From: an uncultured Desulfovibrionaceae bacterium
GTDB taxonomy: Bacteria; Desulfobacterota; Desulfovibrionia; Desulfovibrionales; Desulfovibrionaceae
NCBI GenBank assembly: GCA_944324045.1
Contig: CALUUT010000026.1
Coordinates: 1 to 57,135, forward strand
Length of the DNA: 57,135 nt
Direction of reading: 5' to 3'
Part shown: positions 30,863-43,022 of the stretch, one piece after another
Layout: the number at the start of each line of letters is the position of its first letter
Position numbering within the stretch: the stretch's first letter is position 1
Program-made: the position numbers and the translations under genes
The notes under the pieces: generated by a model
Databases searched by the model: none
What the model was told of the DNA's origin: nothing
The model's input: only the letters and a program-made list of their open reading frames with translations

Positions 30863-30909
30863 TTGACCATATAAAGTTATCGGGATATATCACATCAAGA
30901 AATCTTGAT
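30863..30909 (+). promoter_or_regulatory. sahR promoter and inverted-repeat operator
   Basis: A -35 box TTGACC (30863-30868), 17-base spacer and -10 box TATATC (30886-30891) are followed two bases later by the inverted repeat ATCAAGA-AA-TCTTGAT (30894-30909). The repeat covers the expected start site. SahR is an ArsR-type repressor that in Desulfovibrionales binds palindromes before methyl-cycle genes and is released by S-adenosylhomocysteine, so self-regulation of sahR-ahcY is the likely reading. Confidence 0.8.
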
Positions 30910-31008
30910 AAAGAGGTGAGGCGCTGAATAAGCGCGCGTGCGGCGGCGATGTGGAACACGCGCGTTGAGACAATTATTGCGGCGCACAGCAGGGAGCACG
31001 GAGAAAGC

Positions 31009-31923
31009 ATGTCGCAGGTTCTTCAGTATATCAAGGCGTTATCCGACGAGACCAGACTTCGTCTCATGGCTGTTCTTTCCCGGTACGAATTAAGCGTCAA
31101 TGAGCTTGTGACGCTTTTTGAAATGGGCCAGTCCCGTATTTCACGGCATTTGAAAATTTTGACTGCGGCGGATCTCCTGAAATGGCGGAGAGACGGATTA
31201 TGGGTGTATTATTCTGGGACGACAAATGGCGGAGGACAAAAGTTTTGGGCCGCAATTGCGCCGTTTTGCGCGGATGATGCGTTTTTTTCCGATGACCTGC
31301 GTATGGCCCAGAGCATCATTGAGGAGCGAACCCGCAAAACCCGCCAGTTCTTCAATTCCATAGCGGAAGATTGGGATCAGCTTAATAATGAAATCATGGG
31401 GGATTTCGATCTGCCCGGCGCGGTTCTTGATTTTATGCCCCTATGCAATATGGCTGCGGACCTTGGCTGCGGTACAGGCACCGTGCTTTCCCGCCTGCTT
31501 GAATGCGCCGGACATGCCATTGGCGTGGACGGCTCTCCGCGTATGCTCGCGCTTGCGCGTCGGCGTTTTGGCGACAGTTCGCGGGTGTCCTTGCGTATTG
31601 GGGATCTTGAGCATCTGCCCTTGCGGGATGGAGAGGCGGATTTTGCCTGCATCAATATGGTGCTGCATCACCTTTCCCACCCGCGCGAGGCCTTGCCGGA
31701 AATAGCGCGGGTGCTTGCGCCGAAAGGCCGGCTTGTCATTACGGATTTTGAACGCCATGAAAATGAATTCATGCGCACCGAGTACGGCGATCTCAGTCTG
31801 GGATTTGATGTTGACGAGCTTTTCCAATGGCTGAGCGCGGCTGGATTTCATGTGGAGTCGGTACGCCGGGAGCCGGTCAAGAGAAACTTGATTGTTGTTG
31901 TCGTGAGCGCTTCACGCGCGTAA
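31009..31923 (+). CDS. sahR: SahR-type ArsR regulator fused to a SAM-dependent methyltransferase domain
   Basis: Residues 1-90 are an ArsR winged helix: [40 protein letters not shown] (recognition helix) and [13 protein letters not shown]. Residues 115-290 are a class I methyltransferase fold with [10 protein letters not shown] (151-160) and [10 protein letters not shown]. In SahR proteins this domain senses S-adenosylhomocysteine. The start at 31009 has GGAGA seven bases upstream; an upstream in-frame ATG at 30949 has none. ahcY follows after 38 bases, and an operator sits on the promoter. The identification rests on domain fusion plus context. Confidence 0.88.
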
Positions 31924-31961
31924 GAGAATATAACCTGTACAGTAATTTTGCCGGAGGAAAC

Positions 31962-33398
31962 ATGGCAAGTAGTGGTTCTGTTCGTCCCCTCGATCTTTCC
32001 CTTGAATATTCTGTAGCCGATATCAACCTTGCTGATTTTGGGCACAAGGAAATGCAGTTGTCTGAAAACGAAATGCCCGGACTTATGGAGCTTATCCGTC
32101 TTTATGGCGAAAAAAAACCTCTTTCCGGTTTGAAAATCACGGGCTCGTTGCACATGACCATTCAAACCGCAATGCTTATCAAGACGCTGTACACCCTTGG
32201 CGCGGATGTGCGTTGGGCGTCCTGCAATATTTTTTCGACCCAGGATCATGCGGCGGCGGCCATAGCTCAAAGCGGCATGGCCAAGGTCTTTGCCTGGAAG
32301 GGAGAAAGTCTGGAAGACTACTGGTGGTGTACGGAAATGGCTTTGACCTGGCCGGACGGCTCCGGGCCCGACCTTATAGTGGACGATGGCGGGGATGCGA
32401 CGTTGTTTATTCATAAGGGCGTGGAAGTGGAAAAAAATCCCACGCTTCTGGATAAGCCATGCGACAACAAAGAACTTCAGATCATCATGGACCGCCTGTC
32501 GCTGTCTTTGAAAAACAACCCCAAACGCTGGCAGGACGTTGCGTCCAAAGTCCGCGGCGTCTCAGAGGAAACCACTACCGGCGTGCATCGGCTTTATCAG
32601 ATGGAAAAGACCGACGCGCTTTTATTTCCCGCTATCAACGTCAATGATTCCGTGACGAAATCCAAATTCGACAACTTGTATGGCTGTCGTGAATCTCTGG
32701 CGGACGGGCTCAAGCGCGCCACAGATATCATGGTTGCCGGCAAGATTGTGGTCGTCGCCGGGTATGGCGATGTGGGCAAGGGCTGCGCTCAGAGCATGCG
32801 CGGTTTTGGCGCGCGCGTGCTGATTACGGAAATAGACCCGATTTGCGCCCTTCAGGCCGCCATGGAAGGCTTTGAGGTCGTCACTATGGATGACGCCGCG
32901 TCCATAGGCGACATTTTTGTGACCGCCACGGGAAATTACAGGGTCATTACAGGCGAGCATATGCTTAAAATGAAAAATGAGGCCATTGTGTGCAATATCG
33001 GTCACTTTGATAATGAAATCGATATGCACTATTTGGAAACCACGCCCGCGTGTGTGAAGACCAATATCAAGCCTCAGGTTGACAAGTGGCTGCTGCCTAC
33101 AGGCCGTTCCATCATCGTTTTGGCGGAAGGACGCCTGGTGAATCTTGGGTGCGCTACTGGGCATCCCAGCTTTGTTATGTCCGCAAGCTTTACCAACCAG
33201 GTGCTGGCCCAGCTTGAACTGGCGTCCAAAAATTTGGAAAAGAAAGTCTATGTGCTGCCCAAGCGTCTGGATGAGGAAGTGGCGCGGCTTCATCTTGGGC
33301 GGCTTGGCGTGAAATTGACCACCTTGACAAAAGAACAGGCCGAGTACATCGGCGTTGACGTGCAGGGACCCTACAAACCTGACCATTATAGATATTAA
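31962..33398 (+). CDS. ahcY: AhcY, S-adenosylhomocysteine hydrolase
   Basis: Splits S-adenosylhomocysteine into adenosine and homocysteine, clearing the product of methylation reactions. The start has GGAGG six bases upstream and gives 478 residues. [31 protein letters not shown] and the NAD-binding loop GYGDVGKG (267-274) are present, and the C-terminus PDHYRY is canonical. It is cotranscribed with sahR. metA, also in methionine metabolism, lies convergent downstream. Confidence 0.98.
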
Positions 33399-33523
33399 AA
33401 GAGATTGTATGGCGTCATCAGGCGGGCAATGTCCGGCGCATAGCGGAGCTGCCGCAGTCTGATGCTTCATATGACTGTGTTTTTGCCTGATTAAAAATTG
33501 CCGGCATCATTGGCCGAAAAAAA

Positions 33524-33570
33524 GGCGCGCATGGGAATGCTCTGAGAGAATCCATGCGCGTCTTTTTTAT
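33524..33570 (+). terminator. Rho-independent terminator after ahcY
   Basis: GGCGCGCATGG and CCATGCGCGTC (33524-33534, 33552-33562) pair at 10 of 11 positions and are followed by TTTTTTATTTT. It lies about 125 bases past the ahcY stop. Confidence 0.85.
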
Positions 33571-33659
33571 TTTCAGACAAGGATTGAGTTGAATAAAAGA
33601 TAGTGAAATCAATATGTTGTGCTATTAGAAAAAAATAAAAAAAATATGGAAATTTGTTC

Positions 33660-33718
33660 TTGACAAGATGTTTGGAAAACTGTAAATTGCAATTGAATTT
33701 GAAATTCAAATTCAATTG
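33660..33718 (+). promoter_or_regulatory. Promoter with a 29-bp perfect palindrome over the start site
   Basis: A consensus -35 TTGACA (33660-33665), a 17-base spacer and TAAATT (33683-33688) are followed at once by two 14-bp arms around one central base (33690-33718; arms CAATTGAATTTGAA and TTCAAATTCAATTG). The palindrome covers the expected start at about 33695 and is likely an operator. No open reading frame follows on this strand; a strong terminator lies 175 bases on. Confidence 0.7.
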
Positions 33719-33926
33719 TCAGGGGCCGTGCTCAGGTTTGCAGAGTTCAACTTGCAGGCAATTTTGTTTGTCAGGTCTGGCTCTCCTTCGGAACAGCGGC
33801 CCGGACAGAATCTCTCCGTGTCTGTCCGGGCCGGTGTCTGAAAAAGTTTTTTGTCAGGTTGGTTGTTTCAGGCTGTTTTTCTTCCTCTTTTGGTGCGAAG
33901 CGCATTTGTGCGCTTCGCACTTTTTT
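33695..33926 (+). ncRNA. Candidate small RNA between ahcY and metA
   Basis: Predicted from its edges: a good promoter and a strong terminator frame about 230 bases with no credible reading frame. Inside is an 11-bp perfect stem, GGCCCGGACAG / CTGTCCGGGCC (about 33799-33833), with a 13-base loop. A GTG-initiated frame of 38 codons exists but has a badly spaced ribosome site. The 3' end could instead read towards metA, making the RNA a possible antisense or leader-like regulator of methionine genes. No known RNA family is recognised. Confidence 0.5.
33893..33926 (+). terminator. Strong rho-independent terminator of the candidate small RNA
   Basis: A perfect 12-bp stem (GTGCGAAGCGCA / TGCGCTTCGCAC, 33893-33904 and 33909-33920) with a TTTG loop is followed by six T. 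No T run exists in the other direction, so it ends a plus-strand transcript, not metA. Confidence 0.9.
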
Positions 33927-34008: not shown

Positions 34009-34971
34009 TTAAGGCATGGCTCCTTGACTGAATCCTCTGCTTGGCACATGCTGCCGGGCAATATCGTAGATGTGATAAGGCGTTTCCTGATACACGTGAT
34101 AGTTGAGCCAATTGGAAAAAAACAGATGGGCGTGAGCGCGCCAGGTCATAATTGGCGTTCGGCTTGGATCATTGTCCGGATAATAGTTTTCAGGAATCGC
34201 TGCATTAAGTCCTTTTGCCAGATCGCGACGATATTCTCCGTCCAGGGTATCGCGATCATATTCCAGATGTCCGGTGATAAAGTGCCGGCGTCCGTCTTTA
34301 GAGGCAAGAAGGAGTATTCCGGCCTGATCAGATTCCGCCAGAATTTCCAGGGCGCCAATCTGCTCTACATCGGCGCGCAAGGTTTGAGTATACCGCGAAT
34401 GCGGCGCATGGAACACATCGTCAAAACCGCGAAATATTTTATTTAAGGGCTTGGTAATCGTATGAGTGTAAATTCCGGAAAGCTTTTTTTCCATGGGATG
34501 CTTGGGGATGCCGTAAAGATGGAACATTCCCGCTTGCGCTCCCCAACACACATACAGGGTTGAAAGAACATTGGCTTCCGCAAAATCAATGATTTCACGC
34601 AGTTCGTCCCAATAGTCCACTTCTTTGAAATCAAGCTGTTCAACAGGCGCGCCGGTTATGATCATTCCATCAAAAGCCTGACGTTTGATATCGGAAAAGG
34701 TTTTGTAAAAACGTTCCAGATGTTCGGGAGCAGTATTTTTGGATATATGGCGTTCTGTACGGAGCAGGGTGATGTTTACCTGCAAAGGCGAATTTCCGAG
34801 CAGACGCAGCAGTTGGGTCTCAGTTGCAATTTTTGTAGGCATCAGATTGACGATGACAATTTCAAGCGGCCGAATATCCTGACGGAGCGCTCTGGATTCC
34901 GTCATGACAAAGATGTTTTCATTCTCAAGTATGTTTCGGGCCGGCAGGTCTTCCGCTATCTTGATGGGCAT
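34009..34971 (-). CDS. metA: MetA family homoserine O-acetyltransferase
   Basis: Activates the hydroxyl of homoserine, the first step towards methionine. The 320 residues hold the catalytic Cys142 in YVCWGAQAG, the His of the family's catalytic triad in the C-terminal half, and HLEYDRD. Residue 111 is Glu (TGAPVEQLDF); in this family Glu here selects acetyl-CoA and Gly selects succinyl-CoA, so acetyl transfer is predicted. The start at 34971 has AAGGA eight bases upstream. It is convergent with ahcY and the candidate small RNA. Confidence 0.92.
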   Translation of the reverse strand: MPIKIAEDLPARNILENENIFVMTESRALRQDIRPLEIVIVNLMPTKIATETQLLRLLGNSPLQVNITLLRTERHISKNTAPEHLERFYKTFSDIKRQAFDGMIITGAPVEQLDFKEVDYWDELREIIDFAEANVLSTLYVCWGAQAGMFHLYGIPKHPMEKKLSGIYTHTITKPLNKIFRGFDDVFHAPHSRYTQTLRADVEQIGALEILAESDQAGILLLASKDGRRHFITGHLEYDRDTLDGEYRRDLAKGLNAAIPENYYPDNDPSRTPIMTWRAHAHLFFSNWLNYHVYQETPYHIYDIARQHVPSRGFSQGAMP

Positions 34972-36199: not shown

Positions 36200-36276
36200 G
36201 TCCCCATCGTCTAGCCGGCCCAGGACAACGGCCTTTCACGCCGTCGACAGGGGTTCAAATCCCCTTGGGGACGCCA
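36200..36276 (+). tRNA. tRNA-Glu (anticodon TTC)
   Basis: A complete cloverleaf: acceptor GTCCCCA / TGGGGAC, D arm, anticodon stem CGGC..GCCG with loop CTTTCAC (TTC), T arm with GTTCAAAT, discriminator G and encoded CCA. Its 3' 49 bases are the attachment site of the element that follows, and the gene is kept whole by the insertion. Confidence 0.97.
36228..36276 (+). repeat. attL: left attachment repeat
   Basis: The 49 bases from the anticodon arm to CCA of tRNA-Glu recur exactly at 54993-55041. This copy is part of the functional tRNA. Confidence 0.95.
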
Positions 36277-36285
36277 AATGAAATC

Positions 36286-36317
36286 AAAGGGTTACATGAA
36301 AATGTAGCCCTTTTTTT
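36286..36317 (+). terminator. Terminator after tRNA-Glu
   Basis: AAAGGGTTACAT and ATGTAGCCCTTT (36286-36297, 36302-36313) pair at all positions if one G-T pair is allowed, with a GAAA loop, followed by a T run to 36317. It is supplied by the inserted element. Confidence 0.85.
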
Positions 36318-36320
36318 CGT

Positions 36321-36354
36321 TGTGGGGTAAATTTGCCCCACGCTCTGCCCCACA
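36321..36354. repeat. Left-end integrase arm-type repeats (TGCCCCACA)
   Basis: TACCCCACA inverted at 36321-36329, TGCCCCACG at 36334-36342 and TGCCCCACA at 36346-36354. The same 9-mer recurs at the right end, as expected for arm-binding sites of a tyrosine integrase flanking the core. Confidence 0.65.
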
Positions 36355-36761
36355 GAAATTTGAAAAGATTAACTTAAGTGTCATGATTAACTGAAAGGCT
36401 TGATAAAAGGGGCAGGGACAGGGGGGAGACTATCTCTCACTTGGAATCTGGAGTATTAAGCGATGTACTCAAGTGCCTCATAACCAGCTTTTTGGGGATG
36501 AAGATGGAGGTTGGAGTGCAGGCAGAATCATAGCTGATATGCTGCGTCCCCTTCCGACAAAACACCGAAAGCACGCTCTCTAGTTTATGGTTGAGTTGGT
36601 GAGAGTGTTGCGATTTTAGTTATTTGTTGATAAATTTTAAAAGGATTTAGAATATGATGTGAATTCTGCATGTTATGTATAAAAATATATAATAAGGATT
36701 CCGTGCCATAGGTAAGACATGATACACTCCAATAAGGTAGTTTTGTTTTTCAGGAGGAAGC
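36355..36761. other. Non-coding region at the left end of the element
   Basis: No gene is seen. AT-rich from about 36600. TATAAT at 36688-36693 may be the -10 box of the NdpA/RelA-SpoT unit, but its -35 (TCTGCA) is poor, which suggests an activator or a weak promoter. Confidence 0.35.
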
Positions 36762-37838
36762 ATGCTGTTTGAAAACCTGAAAGTTGATAGATTAGTCGTC
36801 CATGAAGTCCACAGAAGGGATAACAATGGTCCCAAAGCTCCAGAATTGAGCAATAATTTTGAAATTTTGACTGGGGAAGCGACTGCGGTTTTTTGCAGCA
36901 GACTGAGTGATGCTTTAGGGAGTGCGTCTCGAAGTATTGAAATGTCACTGGGGAACATTGGGGCCGGTTCAATGTTCCTTTTATCTAAAGAATTATTAGA
37001 TGCGGGGGATGATGATTTTATTGCTCTATCTCAAGAAGCCGCTCGAATGCTAGTTAGAGCCCAAAATGCAATGACAATTCCTGGTGGATTACTAATGGTT
37101 TTTCAAGGAGTAGCGGGTGCGCCGCCAAAACGATATCTTGGACTTTTAAAAGCAGAGCCTCAAACCGGATTTAGGCAAAATAGAAGTAGTGGTCAGTCCT
37201 TATTAGAGTACATAAATAAATTATTTCTGACACCTGATTCAAAAGTGTATAAAATAGGAATGTTTGTCGAAATTGCGCCCCCAACTAGCAATATCAGTGA
37301 TTGGAACAATTACTATTCGTGCTATTTATTTGATGCAAATATTGTCAGCAAAGAAGCTGCAAAGGCGGCAACATATTTTTATGAATCATTTCTTGGGTTT
37401 ACTTCTTTGCATAATAATGCAAAGACAACTCGAAAATTTATTGAGACCACACGAAAATTTATTTCAAAAATGAGTATACAAGAAGAAAAAAAACTTGATT
37501 TATATTCTGCATTAATGGCTTATATACGAGCAGATCAGTCTCAAGTGATATCTGTAGCAGAATTTGCAACAAAATATTTGAGCGATCCTGACAGTAGAGA
37601 TGCATACGAAAGTTTTTGTAAAAAGCAAAATCTTCCAGAACATTCTTTTTCTAAAGACATAAGCGAAAGTAAAAGCTTGTTAAGAAGAAGAAAAATTAAA
37701 TTTGGAAATGATGTCCAACTTAGTGGACCAGCAGATAAACTTGGAGATTTGGTAGATATATCTGCCATCAATGGTCCTAATAATGAGCAATGGACAAAAA
37801 TTACTGTGAAATCTCCTCTGTTGGGTGAAAATGTCTGA
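36762..37838 (+). CDS. NdpA/NA37-like nucleoid-associated protein
   Basis: A 358-residue protein starting right after GGAGGAAGC. Its general course fits the NA37 (NdpA/YejK) family: an N-terminal domain with KVDRLVVHEVHRR, a central beta segment GGLLMVFQGVAGAPPKRYLG followed by LLKAEPQTGF, KIGMFVEIAPP and NYYSCYLFD, a helical AAKAATYFYESFLGFTSL, and a C-terminal KIKFGNDVQLSG and TKITVKSP. YejK binds chromosomal DNA in E. coli; members in islands are uncharacterised. The gene is far more AT-rich than the chromosomal genes around it. It overlaps the RelA/SpoT gene by 8 bases, so the two are translationally coupled. The assignment is by similarity of pattern and not certain. Confidence 0.65.
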   Translation: MLFENLKVDRLVVHEVHRRDNNGPKAPELSNNFEILTGEATAVFCSRLSDALGSASRSIEMSLGNIGAGSMFLLSKELLDAGDDDFIALSQEAARMLVRAQNAMTIPGGLLMVFQGVAGAPPKRYLGLLKAEPQTGFRQNRSSGQSLLEYINKLFLTPDSKVYKIGMFVEIAPPTSNISDWNNYYSCYLFDANIVSKEAAKAATYFYESFLGFTSLHNNAKTTRKFIETTRKFISKMSIQEEKKLDLYSALMAYIRADQSQVISVAEFATKYLSDPDSRDAYESFCKKQNLPEHSFSKDISESKSLLRRRKIKFGNDVQLSGPADKLGDLVDISAINGPNNEQWTKITVKSPLLGENV

Positions 37839-38823
37839 AGCTCTTTTTTTACAGCGCTGGAAACGAGAAGCACCGATATATTCTGCTTGGGGTAACTTTG
37901 TATCCTCAAAAATTCTTTCTGAAATAAGAAATGCCATTGGTAACAGTGCTTCATCTTTTGTTAAAATTCCACCAACCCCAAGAATTAAGGAAACCCAAAG
38001 TCTTCTTGACAAAGCTTTTCGCCGTGGCAAGGAGTACCAGGACCCATATGATGATATTGCCGACAAAGTAGGCGTTCGTTTTGTTCTTCTAACTACTGAT
38101 AATGTTAACAAAGTGTGTAGTCTGATTGAACAATGTTCGTGCTGGATGGCCTCAAAAGATAGGGATTTTGAAAAAGAGAAAGCTGACAATCCCAATCTTT
38201 TTATATACCAGTCAATGCATTACATTATTAGAAATAAGAATGAATTCACATATGATGAACAAATTTTACCAGCATCAATACCATGTGAAGTCCAAGTAAG
38301 GACTCTTTTGCAGCATGCTTGGTCGGAGTTATCACATGATATTGTTTATAAGCCTAATACCGTTGCTGCAAGTCCAAAAGTTCAGAGACTTTGCGCTCGT
38401 GCTGTTGCGCTTGTAGAAACCGTTGATGATATTTTTTCAATAGTAGCAAAATCTGTGGTCGATGTGTCAAAACCATTAGAAGATATAATGCCAATCTTAC
38501 GCCAGCTATACTTAAATTTTATTGGGGGACCACCAAGTGAAGGTTCATTAAACATATTTTTACTTGATGCCTACTCTTCTGTAATGCCTATAAACCTATT
38601 AGATATACTTAATGATTTCTATATAAATGGAGAACGACAATATATCATTAAGAAAATCAAAGAAAGGCGTTTAGAACAGGTACTGTATCGTCAATCGGCT
38701 ATCTTATTAGTTTATTATCTGGCAGCAAATAATAAACATAAAACAAAAGCACTATGGCCTTTTATCCCAGAAGAATTACACTTAATATATTCTGATTTAG
38801 GCATTTCATTTTCCAACTTATAA
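37831..38823 (+). CDS. RelA/SpoT-domain (p)ppGpp synthetase-like protein, possible toxSAS
   Basis: A 330-residue single-domain RelA/SpoT synthetase with a C-terminal helical extension. In order: R51-x-K53 in TPRIKETQSLLDKAF, YDDIADKVGVRFVLL (73-87), the G-loop-like FIYQSMHYII (125-134, with the Tyr and Ser-x-His of guanosine binding), and CEVQVRTLLQHAWSELSHD (152-170), whose Glu is catalytic in the family. No hydrolase, TGS or ACT domain is present, as in small synthetases and toxSAS toxins. Residues 180-330 match nothing I know. A GTG at 37825 is an alternative start. It is coupled to the NdpA-like gene and ends 6 bases from the convergent res relic. Confidence 0.8.
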   Translation: MSEALFLQRWKREAPIYSAWGNFVSSKILSEIRNAIGNSASSFVKIPPTPRIKETQSLLDKAFRRGKEYQDPYDDIADKVGVRFVLLTTDNVNKVCSLIEQCSCWMASKDRDFEKEKADNPNLFIYQSMHYIIRNKNEFTYDEQILPASIPCEVQVRTLLQHAWSELSHDIVYKPNTVAASPKVQRLCARAVALVETVDDIFSIVAKSVVDVSKPLEDIMPILRQLYLNFIGGPPSEGSLNIFLLDAYSSVMPINLLDILNDFYINGERQYIIKKIKERRLEQVLYRQSAILLVYYLAANNKHKTKALWPFIPEELHLIYSDLGISFSNL

Positions 38824-38828
38824 TTTTC

Positions 38829-41800
38829 TCAAATTTCCATCTTAAACTCCTTCCACTCCTTTGCCACTCGCAGCTCCACCTCATTCCCCAAAGCCTTAAA
38901 GTGTTGTTTGCCGCAATGAATTTTGAGAGCTTCCGGAGTCCGTAAGTTGAACATGTTGATGTTGCCCTTGGTTTCCAGCACAAAATAGAGTTTTTGCGCG
39001 CCGTCGCGTTCAAGGCACACTGCCCAATCGGGATTATAAGTTCCAATGGGTGTTTCGATTTTAAAAGCACGAGGGATTTTGAAAAACATCTTCACCTGTG
39101 GGTCGTTATCCAGGGCTTGGGCAAAGGGGCGTTCCACAGTATCGCTATCATAGATAACGTAGTCGTAAACGCTGTTTTGCACGGCCACGGCGTTCTTTTC
39201 CAGATTGGCAAGCAACTCTTCGCTGTCAAAGATTTCCTGTATGTAGTAGTCGTTGCCTTCAAGCTTAAGATAGCTGATACCATCCACATCCATATGGTGC
39301 AGGCGGTTGTTGATAATATCCACGCAACACTCGATGAAACGTTGCGGGTTATTGTTCAAATCCTGGAACCGCCCGCTTTGCAAAAGAATATCACAGATCA
39401 CGGCCCGGCTGGTTAAGGTTTGCTCTCCGATTACCGCCAAGACGTCCGGCATTTTGCCGTAACTGTCTTCAATGTCCGTGGTCTGGAATCCGGTTTCTTG
39501 ATGCGTCACTCCGCTTGTTTCAATATTGATGTTCGCGGTCTGTAATACAAGGCGGGCTTTGGGAATGAGTTCCATGTCCCGCAAGTCTTGGACGCATTGA
39601 CTGACCAAGGCGGCGCTGTCCACTTTGACGCGATACGTGGTCTTCTGCTTAATTTTATCCCACAGTTTCAAAAATTCCGGGGAAAGCAGAACCTGCTTTT
39701 TGAGTTTGACCATAACGTCTTTTGAGGCGTCGCGAAGCGGCGGTCGCTTGTCGGCCCGGCTGATGATGTACTCGAATTTCTCACGGGCAGCTTCAAACTT
39801 TGCGGGCAGGTCCAGAGTGCCGTGTTTGAGGGCATTTTTCAGGGTATCCTTGATTTTGCCGCTCTTGTCCATGTAGCCTTTTGTTTCCAGGTGGGTCAAA
39901 AGCTCTTTGGCATCCTCATAGGACACGGTCTTTTCCACCTGCACCGTCTTTGTATAGCCAATACCGGACAGAGCCATGGCATCCACCTTGGGCGTATCGC
40001 GGATAATGGCGGTAACAGCAGTCACCGCCGAAGCCGCCATTTCCTTGGGCAACGTCAGTGTGTTTGCTTCAATGGCTGTTTTCAACGCTGGCTGCGGTCG
40101 GCCTTCAGGCGTAATGTAGCCGTGTTTTTCCAAGTAGGCCACAATGCTTTTGGCTTCTTCCGGGGCAATGGTTTTATGTTCTTCCACAGTGTCCGTATAG
40201 GTGATTCCAGCGAACAAGCTCAGTTGCAGAATACCGAATTTCAGACCGGTTTCGTCCTCTATTTCCTTTTGCAGTGTGCTCGCGAACTCCGCAAAGCTCT
40301 CGTTGGCCATGACGTGCAGCAGGTTGATGTCCTTATCTTCAACGCGTTCCCCATCCTGGTTCACGCACAGGCGCAAGCCGCGTCCGACTTTCTGGCGGCA
40401 GGTAAACGTGGATTTTTGTTCAATGAGGGTACAGACCTGGAAGACGTTGGGGTTGTCCCATCCCTCTTTCAGTGCGGAGTGGGAAAAAATAAAGCGTAGA
40501 GGGCACTCAAAGGACAGAAGCCGCTCCTTGTCTTTCATGATAGTGTTGTAGGTATTATAATCGTCCAGAGTGTCGCCCTTGGTGTCCTTGAGAGTGCCTC
40601 TCTTGTCCTGGGAAAAATAGCCGTCATGCACGCCGGTAACCGCCATACCGAAGCGTTCCCTGAGCGCTTCATATTTGGGTAAGGCCAGAAGTTCCTGATA
40701 GCATTCTTCAAACATCAAGGCATATGGGCCTTTGTCGCCTTCTGGAGTGCGGTATTTCTTTACTTCATCAATGAAAAAGAGGGAGAGTACCTTAATGCCT
40801 TTCTCAAGGAGCCGCAATTCTTTCTGAAAGTGGGTTTCAATGGTGCGCCGAATCTGTGCTCGCTTAACGATGTTTTCATCAATATCGCCAATGGATTTGC
40901 CGAGTTTCAGGAATTCGCCGCTGGCGAACTCAATGCACTCGAAGCCCGGGGTTGCGTCAATGCCAACCAAGGCGTAGCCTTCGTACAAATCGCGTTCCCC
41001 GGAAAGCCCGAATAGGTCCGAAGATGGGGAAAGTGTGACTGTTTTCCGGGATACCTTGCCGTCTTTGGCGCGGATATCCATTTCCACTTTGGCTCGATAG
41101 CCCCTGTCATCTTTGGTAACAGAAAGCAGTTTGATGTAGGGTTTGTTAAAGCCATGGGTAACCTGATTGGAAGACACGCAAATTTGTTTGACCAGCCCCA
41201 TTTGGTACGCATCTACCGGGGTCAGGCGGAACAATAGATTGACCTTTTCGCGATGGGTAGCGGAATAGCGTAAAACACACAACGGATTCAGAGAGGCAAT
41301 GGCTTCCTTGGCTTTTGCGGTATTGTCCACGCTTTGCGGCTCGTCGATGATGACAATGGGGTTGGTATCCTGAATGAAGCGTATGGCCGATTCGCCGGAA
41401 AGCCTGTCTTGAGCCTGATTGATGATGTTCTCAGATTTTTTGAACGCATCAATGTTGATAATCATGATTTCAATGGCAGCGGAAGCCGCGAACTGACGCA
41501 CATCGGACAAGCGCGCTGTTGTAAATGAAGTAGCGGCACGGCGCGTTGTTGTATTGCAAGCCGAAATGTTCTTGCGTCACTTGGAAGGATTTGTACACAC
41601 CTTCCCGGATAGCCACGGACGGCACAACAATGATAAACTTGGTGAAGCCGAAACGTTTGTGCAACTCAAAAATAGTTTTAGTGTACACATAGGTTTTGCC
41701 AGTGCCGGTTTCCATTTCAATGTTGAAATGCCGGTTTTCCAGACTTGCAGTCTGTGGCAGGCTGTTGCGCTTCTGCACGGCCTGCATGTTGGCAAGCATG

Positions 41801-41976: not shown

Positions 41977-43022
41977 GCACTCTTACCCTTTTTGATGGCC
42001 TCAATTTTTTTTAGTTCCCGCTCCGCTTCCACAAAGTCTTTTTCTACTTGCGTGGGCTTGGCCAGCAGTTGTGCCTTGTATTTGTCATATTCCGCATGAG
42101 CCTTTTGCAACGCCTGTTCATGGGATATTTTCCCGGTATGGGTCAGGAGTTCCCGTCCGGTCATGGTCAGGAACTGTTGTAAACGTTCAGCCCAATCTTT
42201 CATCGTTTGCGGACTGTGGTTCATAGCCTGAATTTCAGCCACTTCAAGGTAGGCGGTGACAATGCGGTTGAGCATATCCAGTTCTGTTTTGCTCAAGTAA
42301 TTTTTGGCTATTTCCACATCACGCTTGAGAAGCCGGGCGCCGGGGAAGTTGGTTACGCCCATTTGCGGCTTTTCCGCGTCGGCACGGTGATAAATGAGTT
42401 CCGCTGCCGTGTGACCGTGGGCTGCCCAGTGCATCTGATTTTGTACTTGTTTGAAGAATTCCTTGGAAAGGTCAGAACGCGGATCATAGTCGATACTGGT
42501 GGCGTAAATATCCAGCACCTTACGTCAAAAGACTTTTTCTGAAGAACGAATATCCCGGATACGGGCGACAAGTTCCTCAAAGTAACGTGCTGACGCGGTT
42601 TCCTTAAGACGCTTGTCGTCAAGTGTGAACCCTTTGAGTAGATATTCTTTTAGCCGTTGTGTTGCCCATATGCGGAACTGAGTACCCCGCAGGCTGTTGA
42701 CGCGATATCCCACGGAGATAATGGCGTCCAGATTGAAGTATTCGACTTGCCGCGAGACTTGGCGTTGTCCTTCGGTTTGAACTGTTGCAAAATTTGCAAC
42801 AGTTGCCTCCCGTTCCAATTCGCCGCTTTCAAAGATATTCTTCAAATGACGAGAAATGCCGGACTTGTCCACCTGAAAAAGCGCGGCCATTTGATTCAGG
42901 CTCAGCCATACGCTTTCGTCATACAGGCGCACTTCAAGACGCGGGCCGTCATCGTCGGCCTGATAGAGGAGGAGTTCGCCCCTGCTTTCGTCAGGCAGTT
43001 CAGTAGGAGAATGTTTACTCAT
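41973..43022 (-). pseudogene. RhuM family protein interrupted by an in-frame TGA
   Basis: The N-terminal 165 residues (VRLYDESVWLSLNQMAALFQ, VEYFNLDAIISVGYRVNSLRG, LKEYLLKGFTLDDKRLKE, RIRDIRSSEKVF) run to TGA at 42525-42527 and continue in the same frame with RKVLDIYATSIDYDP and QNQMHWAAHGHTAAELIYHRA. Family members read straight through here with an aromatic residue at the TGA position, I believe Trp, so one base change explains it. RhuM is common beside type III restriction genes and its function is unproved. An in-frame palindrome lies at 42780-42804. Confidence 0.85.
42780..42804. repeat. 25-bp perfect palindrome inside rhuM
   Basis: Twelve-base arms AACTGTTGCAAA / TTTGCAACAGTT around one central A. 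Read in the rhuM frame it encodes ATVANFATV. Similar palindromes lie in yhcG. Confidence 0.9.

Follow-up and report, generated by a model that had tools for sequence, protein, structure and literature searches.

A candidate Fur-repressed small RNA gene between ahcY and metA in an uncultured Desulfovibrionaceae bacterium

Introduction

Small RNAs (sRNAs) that are repressed by Fur are a known functional class, the members of which arise independently; RyhB (enterobacteria) and PrrF (Pseudomonas) are Fur-repressed sRNAs that depend on Hfq. The sulfate reducers of the family Desulfovibrionaceae are rich in iron-sulfur and haem proteins.

IsrR from Staphylococcus aureus (174 nt) is encoded by a stand-alone gene, is directly repressed by Fur via boxes in its promoter, and works without Hfq; the RNA is structured and pairs through short single-stranded regions that are C-rich (PMC9410917). 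For Desulfovibrio vulgaris and D. desulfuricans G20, the published Fur regulon has only protein-coding targets and no RNA gene (PMC545781); the regulon described for the family includes iron uptake, flavodoxin, and hypothetical proteins, without an RNA arm that lowers iron use. For Oleidesulfovibrio (Desulfovibrio) alaskensis G20, the published set of predicted non-coding RNAs is described with no mention of RyhB or of any Fur-controlled sRNA from that study (PMC11124144), and a search that left most of the subscription literature outside its reach found no published Fur-repressed sRNA in Desulfovibrio or in the family.

Here we describe a locus in a 57,135-nucleotide stretch of DNA (the window; GenBank assembly GCA_944324045.1, contig CALUUT010000026.1) from an uncultured member of this family. 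A first-pass annotation of the window, made from the sequence alone, had proposed that the gap between ahcY and metA encodes an RNA of about 230 nt under the control of a repressor, and had placed it in the methionine region. From its operator and layout, we conclude that the region 33660–33926 is probably a stand-alone gene for a Fur-repressed small non-coding RNA that would spare iron as RyhB or IsrR do and would act without Hfq.

Results

The plus strand of the gap between ahcY and metA contains a complete small transcription unit, in which an A-rich stretch, a promoter, and a palindrome are followed by a structured region of approximately 170 nt and a terminator. The −35 hexamer TTGACA (33660–33665) and the −10 hexamer TAAATT (33683–33688) are separated by 17 nt and match the consensus at 10 of 12 positions, in agreement with the near-consensus promoter of the first-pass annotation; promoter matches of such quality are by themselves not unusual (2 in 4 kb vs 5.0 expected). 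The A-tract stretch located 5′ of the −35 hexamer (33629–33659) resembles an UP element and may act as one. The predicted start of transcription is 7 nt 3′ of the −10 hexamer, and the predicted end is an intrinsic terminator (33892–33926) with a 13-pair stem (33892–33921; 8 of the 13 pairs are G-C) that is followed by TTTTTT; the strong terminator that had been noted is present.

The upstream neighbor, ahcY (31956–33398, plus strand; S-adenosylhomocysteine hydrolase), lies outside the RNA gene. The transcript that it shares with a sahR-like gene (30949–31923, plus strand) ends at its own intrinsic terminator (~33520–33571, plus strand; a hairpin of −26 kcal/mol, then TTTTTT), as had also been recognized, so the sahR-ahcY transcript is set apart from the RNA gene. 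The downstream neighbor, metA (34009–34971, minus strand; homoserine O-succinyltransferase), is convergent. No clear terminator for metA is seen on the minus strand between 33501 and 34009, so the metA mRNA may extend through the RNA gene in antisense.

The inferred start site is covered by a 29-bp perfect palindrome, CAATTGAATTTGAAATTCAAATTCAATTG (33690–33718; two 14-bp arms and one central base), exactly as first described; just nine perfect palindromes in 1.68 Mb of the same genome are longer. The Desulfovibrio Fur box is WTGAAAATNATTTTCAW (17 bp), and double boxes overlap with a 6-bp shift (Rodionov and colleagues, PMC545781), an arrangement that gives TGA-N3-TGA-N3-TCA-N3-TCA; TTGAATTTGAAATTCAAATTCAA (33693–33715), within the palindrome and over the start site, agrees with this Desulfovibrio consensus at 12 of the 12 defining bases. 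Using a weight matrix built from 20 published Fur sites, all from D. vulgaris and D. desulfuricans G20, we scanned 1.72 Mb of the genome (the scans for Fur boxes and for targets covered about two thirds of it). The palindrome site scored 30.4 bits and ranked second among all sites; the maximum with 20 column-permuted matrices was 21.8 bits. The genome encodes two Fur-family proteins, presumably Fur proper and PerR. The operators of PerR and Zur in Desulfovibrio, taken from their published consensus (PMC545781), were also compared with the palindrome, and neither fits.

The double box is located directly 3′ of the −10 hexamer and covers the start site. To its left it faces the 3′ end of ahcY and to its right the RNA alone, with the start of metA ~1 kb away; because ahcY is terminated before the box and metA is transcribed toward it, this box, one of the two best that we found, has no evident client other than the RNA. 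Judged from these sequence features, the assignment of the palindrome as a Fur site is strongly supported, and the control of the RNA gene by Fur is well supported; the regulator of the palindrome, the search for which had been suggested with the first-pass annotation, is predicted to be Fur.

The other top-scoring Fur sites in the genome adjoin iron genes: they are found at an NRPS cluster of the siderophore-like type, at feoA-feoA-feoB, at a flavodoxin operon, and between the genes for FTR1 and a solute-binding protein; we count this in favor of the Fur reading. A box in the siderophore-like cluster, read on the other strand, differs from the box at 33693 at 2 of 21 bases. This cluster (L074; contig C104:20500–30500) has strong Fur boxes at 2481, 3868, and 5875 and encodes NRPS condensation and adenylation domains, an AMP-binding enzyme, a thioesterase, and a phosphopantetheinyl transferase; no known pathway for siderophore synthesis was reported in the Desulfovibrio genomes studied earlier (PMC545781). 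On contig C30 (L120), a Fur box at 1355 (24.4 bits) is common to the divergent genes encoding the FTR1 iron permease and an iron-type solute-binding protein.

In relatives, such double boxes are also found 5′ of genes that, judged by their translations and by the published regulon, resemble flavodoxin, genY, HD-GYP, and feo genes. On the minus strand of one locus in a near relative (L226 in G034; 1522–1300), a Fur box (~1500–1522; score 26.4) beside feoB is followed by ~170 nt without an evident gene and by a strong terminator (near 1300); the fold has z = −5.5, and the promoter, judged by eye, is TTGACT-17-TATAAA. This candidate is similar in layout to the RNA at 33695–33926 and unrelated to it in sequence; it could be another Fur-controlled RNA or the leader of an HD-domain gene that is located further downstream. 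At a further locus in the relatives (L223), a Fur box has no adjacent gene, and no convincing promoter–terminator pair was found.

The predicted RNA (33695–33926, plus strand; ~230 nt) folds with an energy of −98 kcal/mol (z = −7.95 vs dinucleotide shuffles); when the palindrome and the terminator are removed, z is −4.1. The fold includes a 5′ hairpin derived from the operator palindrome (33695–33713) and a long internal hairpin with a UCUCC-containing loop (33793–33837). The stem of the latter (33793–33809 with 33821–33837) had been reported as 11 bp; it is present but longer, with 17-nt arms that are 94% complementary. The sequence UUGUCAGG occurs in three exact copies (33716–33723, 33768–33775, and 33851–33858) in 143 nt, the sole such cluster of this 8-mer in 1.68 Mb (53 occurrences in total); since 1.3% of dinucleotide shuffles contain some 8-mer three times, the repeat is suggestive, not conclusive. 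The third copy, which opens at low cost, is entered from the unpaired AAAGUUUUUUGU; together these form the probable pairing region (33843–33869). The U/C-rich stretch UUUUUCUUCCUCUUUU (33876–33891) is partly unpaired and resembles an anti-Shine-Dalgarno sequence. Searches of Rfam, both curated and permissive, gave only chance-level matches, none near a gathering score, including that for the RyhB family.

Using the whole region as the query against 149 family genomes, and the body of the RNA against 288, we found only matches of 20–45 nt, and none of those to the RNA body had a Fur box beside it; the remaining nucleotide matches in relatives are the Fur box itself. The genus is represented in the compared genomes by the present genome alone. 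Target prediction with accessibility (1389 genes) gave a best energy of −17.3, no better than that of shuffled RNAs (−17.2 and −17.3), and somewhat more hits of intermediate strength (99 genes below −12 vs 59 and 46), with no evident set of iron proteins among the predicted targets. Many of the low-cost predicted pairings fall in 33845–33869; CCTGACAA, which is complementary to UUGUCAGG, is located close to the start of only three genes, with no evident iron set. A profile search for Hfq (PF17209) that recovered the protein in E. coli and others gave no match in this assembly, which is rated 100% complete; a very divergent Hfq could escape such a search.

Elsewhere in the window, 36200–41510 contains a tRNA gene (36200–36273), a gene of the 37-kD nucleoid-associated type (PF04245), a gene with a RelA/SpoT domain, and a long frame that resembles helicase/restriction genes; the segment has the look of a defence island or a mobile one. 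A perfect palindrome, AACTGTTGCAAAATTTGCAACAGTT (12-bp arms, 1-base center), is located at 42780–42804.

The position of the RNA gene directly 3′ of sahR-ahcY would suit an RNA controlled by methionine or SAH under SahR. The product of the sahR-like gene combines an ArsR-type HTH with a methyltransferase domain, which fits SahR; a scan of genome contigs with this protein returned one unrelated locus. In Desulfovibrio, SahR controls the SAM cycle, and its sites have the motif ATC-N10-GAT (PMC4239095). A SahR-type operator with this motif, ATCAAGAAATCTTGAT (30894–30909), precedes sahR, and many relatives have the same type of motif (e.g., TATATCAAGATATCTTGATATA-like palindromes) upstream of or near ahcY; ATC-N10-GAT is absent from the palindrome at 33690, which matches the Fur box. 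It is a different motif, so the link to methionine is by position only. In addition, metA is within 1.5 kb of ahcY in 0 of 29 relatives, and the RNA is not conserved there. We consider control by SahR extremely improbable. The proposal of a repressor-controlled RNA of ~230 nt is supported, with Fur as the repressor by the match of the site, and its methionine component is not.

Three further explanations take the Fur box or the neighboring genes as their starting points. Under Fur control, the transcript might be an mRNA, or an RNA with a dual function, from which a 37-codon GTG frame at 33728 is translated into a small protein; AGGGG is located just 5′ of the GTG, and in a relative a Fur box precedes a short frame (L085). 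However, this frame, the best in a transcript (33695–33926) that contains no ATG, has a badly spaced Shine-Dalgarno sequence (~2 nt) and crosses the internal hairpin that is strongest; a Pfam match is lacking for the longest frame over the region, and no homolog is available for comparison at the codon level. We regard translation as unlikely, in keeping with the earlier judgment that the region has no credible protein frame. The convergent arrangement would also allow antisense control of metA, by pairing of the RNA with an overlapping 3′ end of the metA mRNA: the minus strand shows no clear terminator for metA before 33926, and metA is a weak predicted target in trans (−13.7 kcal/mol, ~33rd of 1389). 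But that score is within noise, metA and ahcY are not neighbors in relatives, and no link between Fur and metA is known here, which together make antisense control of metA improbable. Finally, the RNA could be functionless, the Fur box and terminator being the remnant of a Fur-controlled gene that was lost; such a history is compatible with an RNA that is apparently genome-specific, given that no homolog was found in 288 family genomes. We regard it as unlikely, because the near-perfect operator, the intact promoter and terminator, the strong fold, and the repeated UUGUCAGG are unlike decay.

Discussion

As a Fur-repressed sRNA gene, the locus would respond to iron. When iron is plentiful, Fe-Fur would occupy the double box (33693–33715) and block RNA polymerase; when iron is short, Fur would be released and the strong promoter would yield the ~230-nt RNA, with transcription expected to end at the hairpin-T6 terminator. 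The RNA would most likely base-pair with mRNAs via the accessible stretch that holds a copy of UUGUCAGG, and the U/C-rich stretch near the 3′ end is a possible second pairing site. Pairing may lower the synthesis of dispensable iron proteins or adjust iron uptake; we infer that the function of the RNA is to spare iron. With no Hfq gene detected, the RNA would function unaided or with the help of a different chaperone. A broader proposal, which we offer tentatively and with more doubt than confidence, is that Desulfovibrionaceae without Hfq have fast-evolving Fur-repressed, iron-sparing sRNAs, of which the present RNA pairs via its repeated UUGUCAGG; the unrelated candidate beside feoB in a near relative (L226) could be a further example, or else a leader.

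If this assignment is true, a Fur-repressed sRNA in a genome without detectable Hfq would be the missing RNA arm of the regulon, and it would test whether iron-sparing RNAs originate independently in each lineage. The locus, the operator, and the pairing element are now defined for probing.

The present RNA is presumably longer and more structured than RyhB. Like RyhB, PrrF, FsrA, and IsrR, the gene has, as read from its sequence, its own promoter, an intrinsic terminator, and a short non-coding transcript; we assign it to this class by its predicted operator and layout, and not to any RNA sequence family. With RyhB and PrrF it shares the Fur box in the promoter and the intrinsic terminator; those RNAs depend on Hfq, whereas Hfq was not found in the present genome and the RNA has no match in Rfam. 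Although sahR-ahcY is its physical neighbor just upstream, the gene is not a member of the SahR regulon, from which its palindrome differs. Its double-box operator is of the type described for Fur targets in D. vulgaris and in D. desulfuricans G20 (PMC545781), and the shared regulon genes feo and flavodoxin carry such an operator here, too.

The comparison with IsrR (PMC9410917) is made across phyla; no relation in sequence or synteny is claimed, and the function of the present RNA is ascribed by inference. The pairing regions of IsrR are C-rich, and the present RNA has UUGUCAGG and the U/C-rich stretch. The two RNAs are comparable in size, and the present RNA, as predicted, is likewise structured, with short single-stranded regions for pairing, and would likewise work without Hfq.
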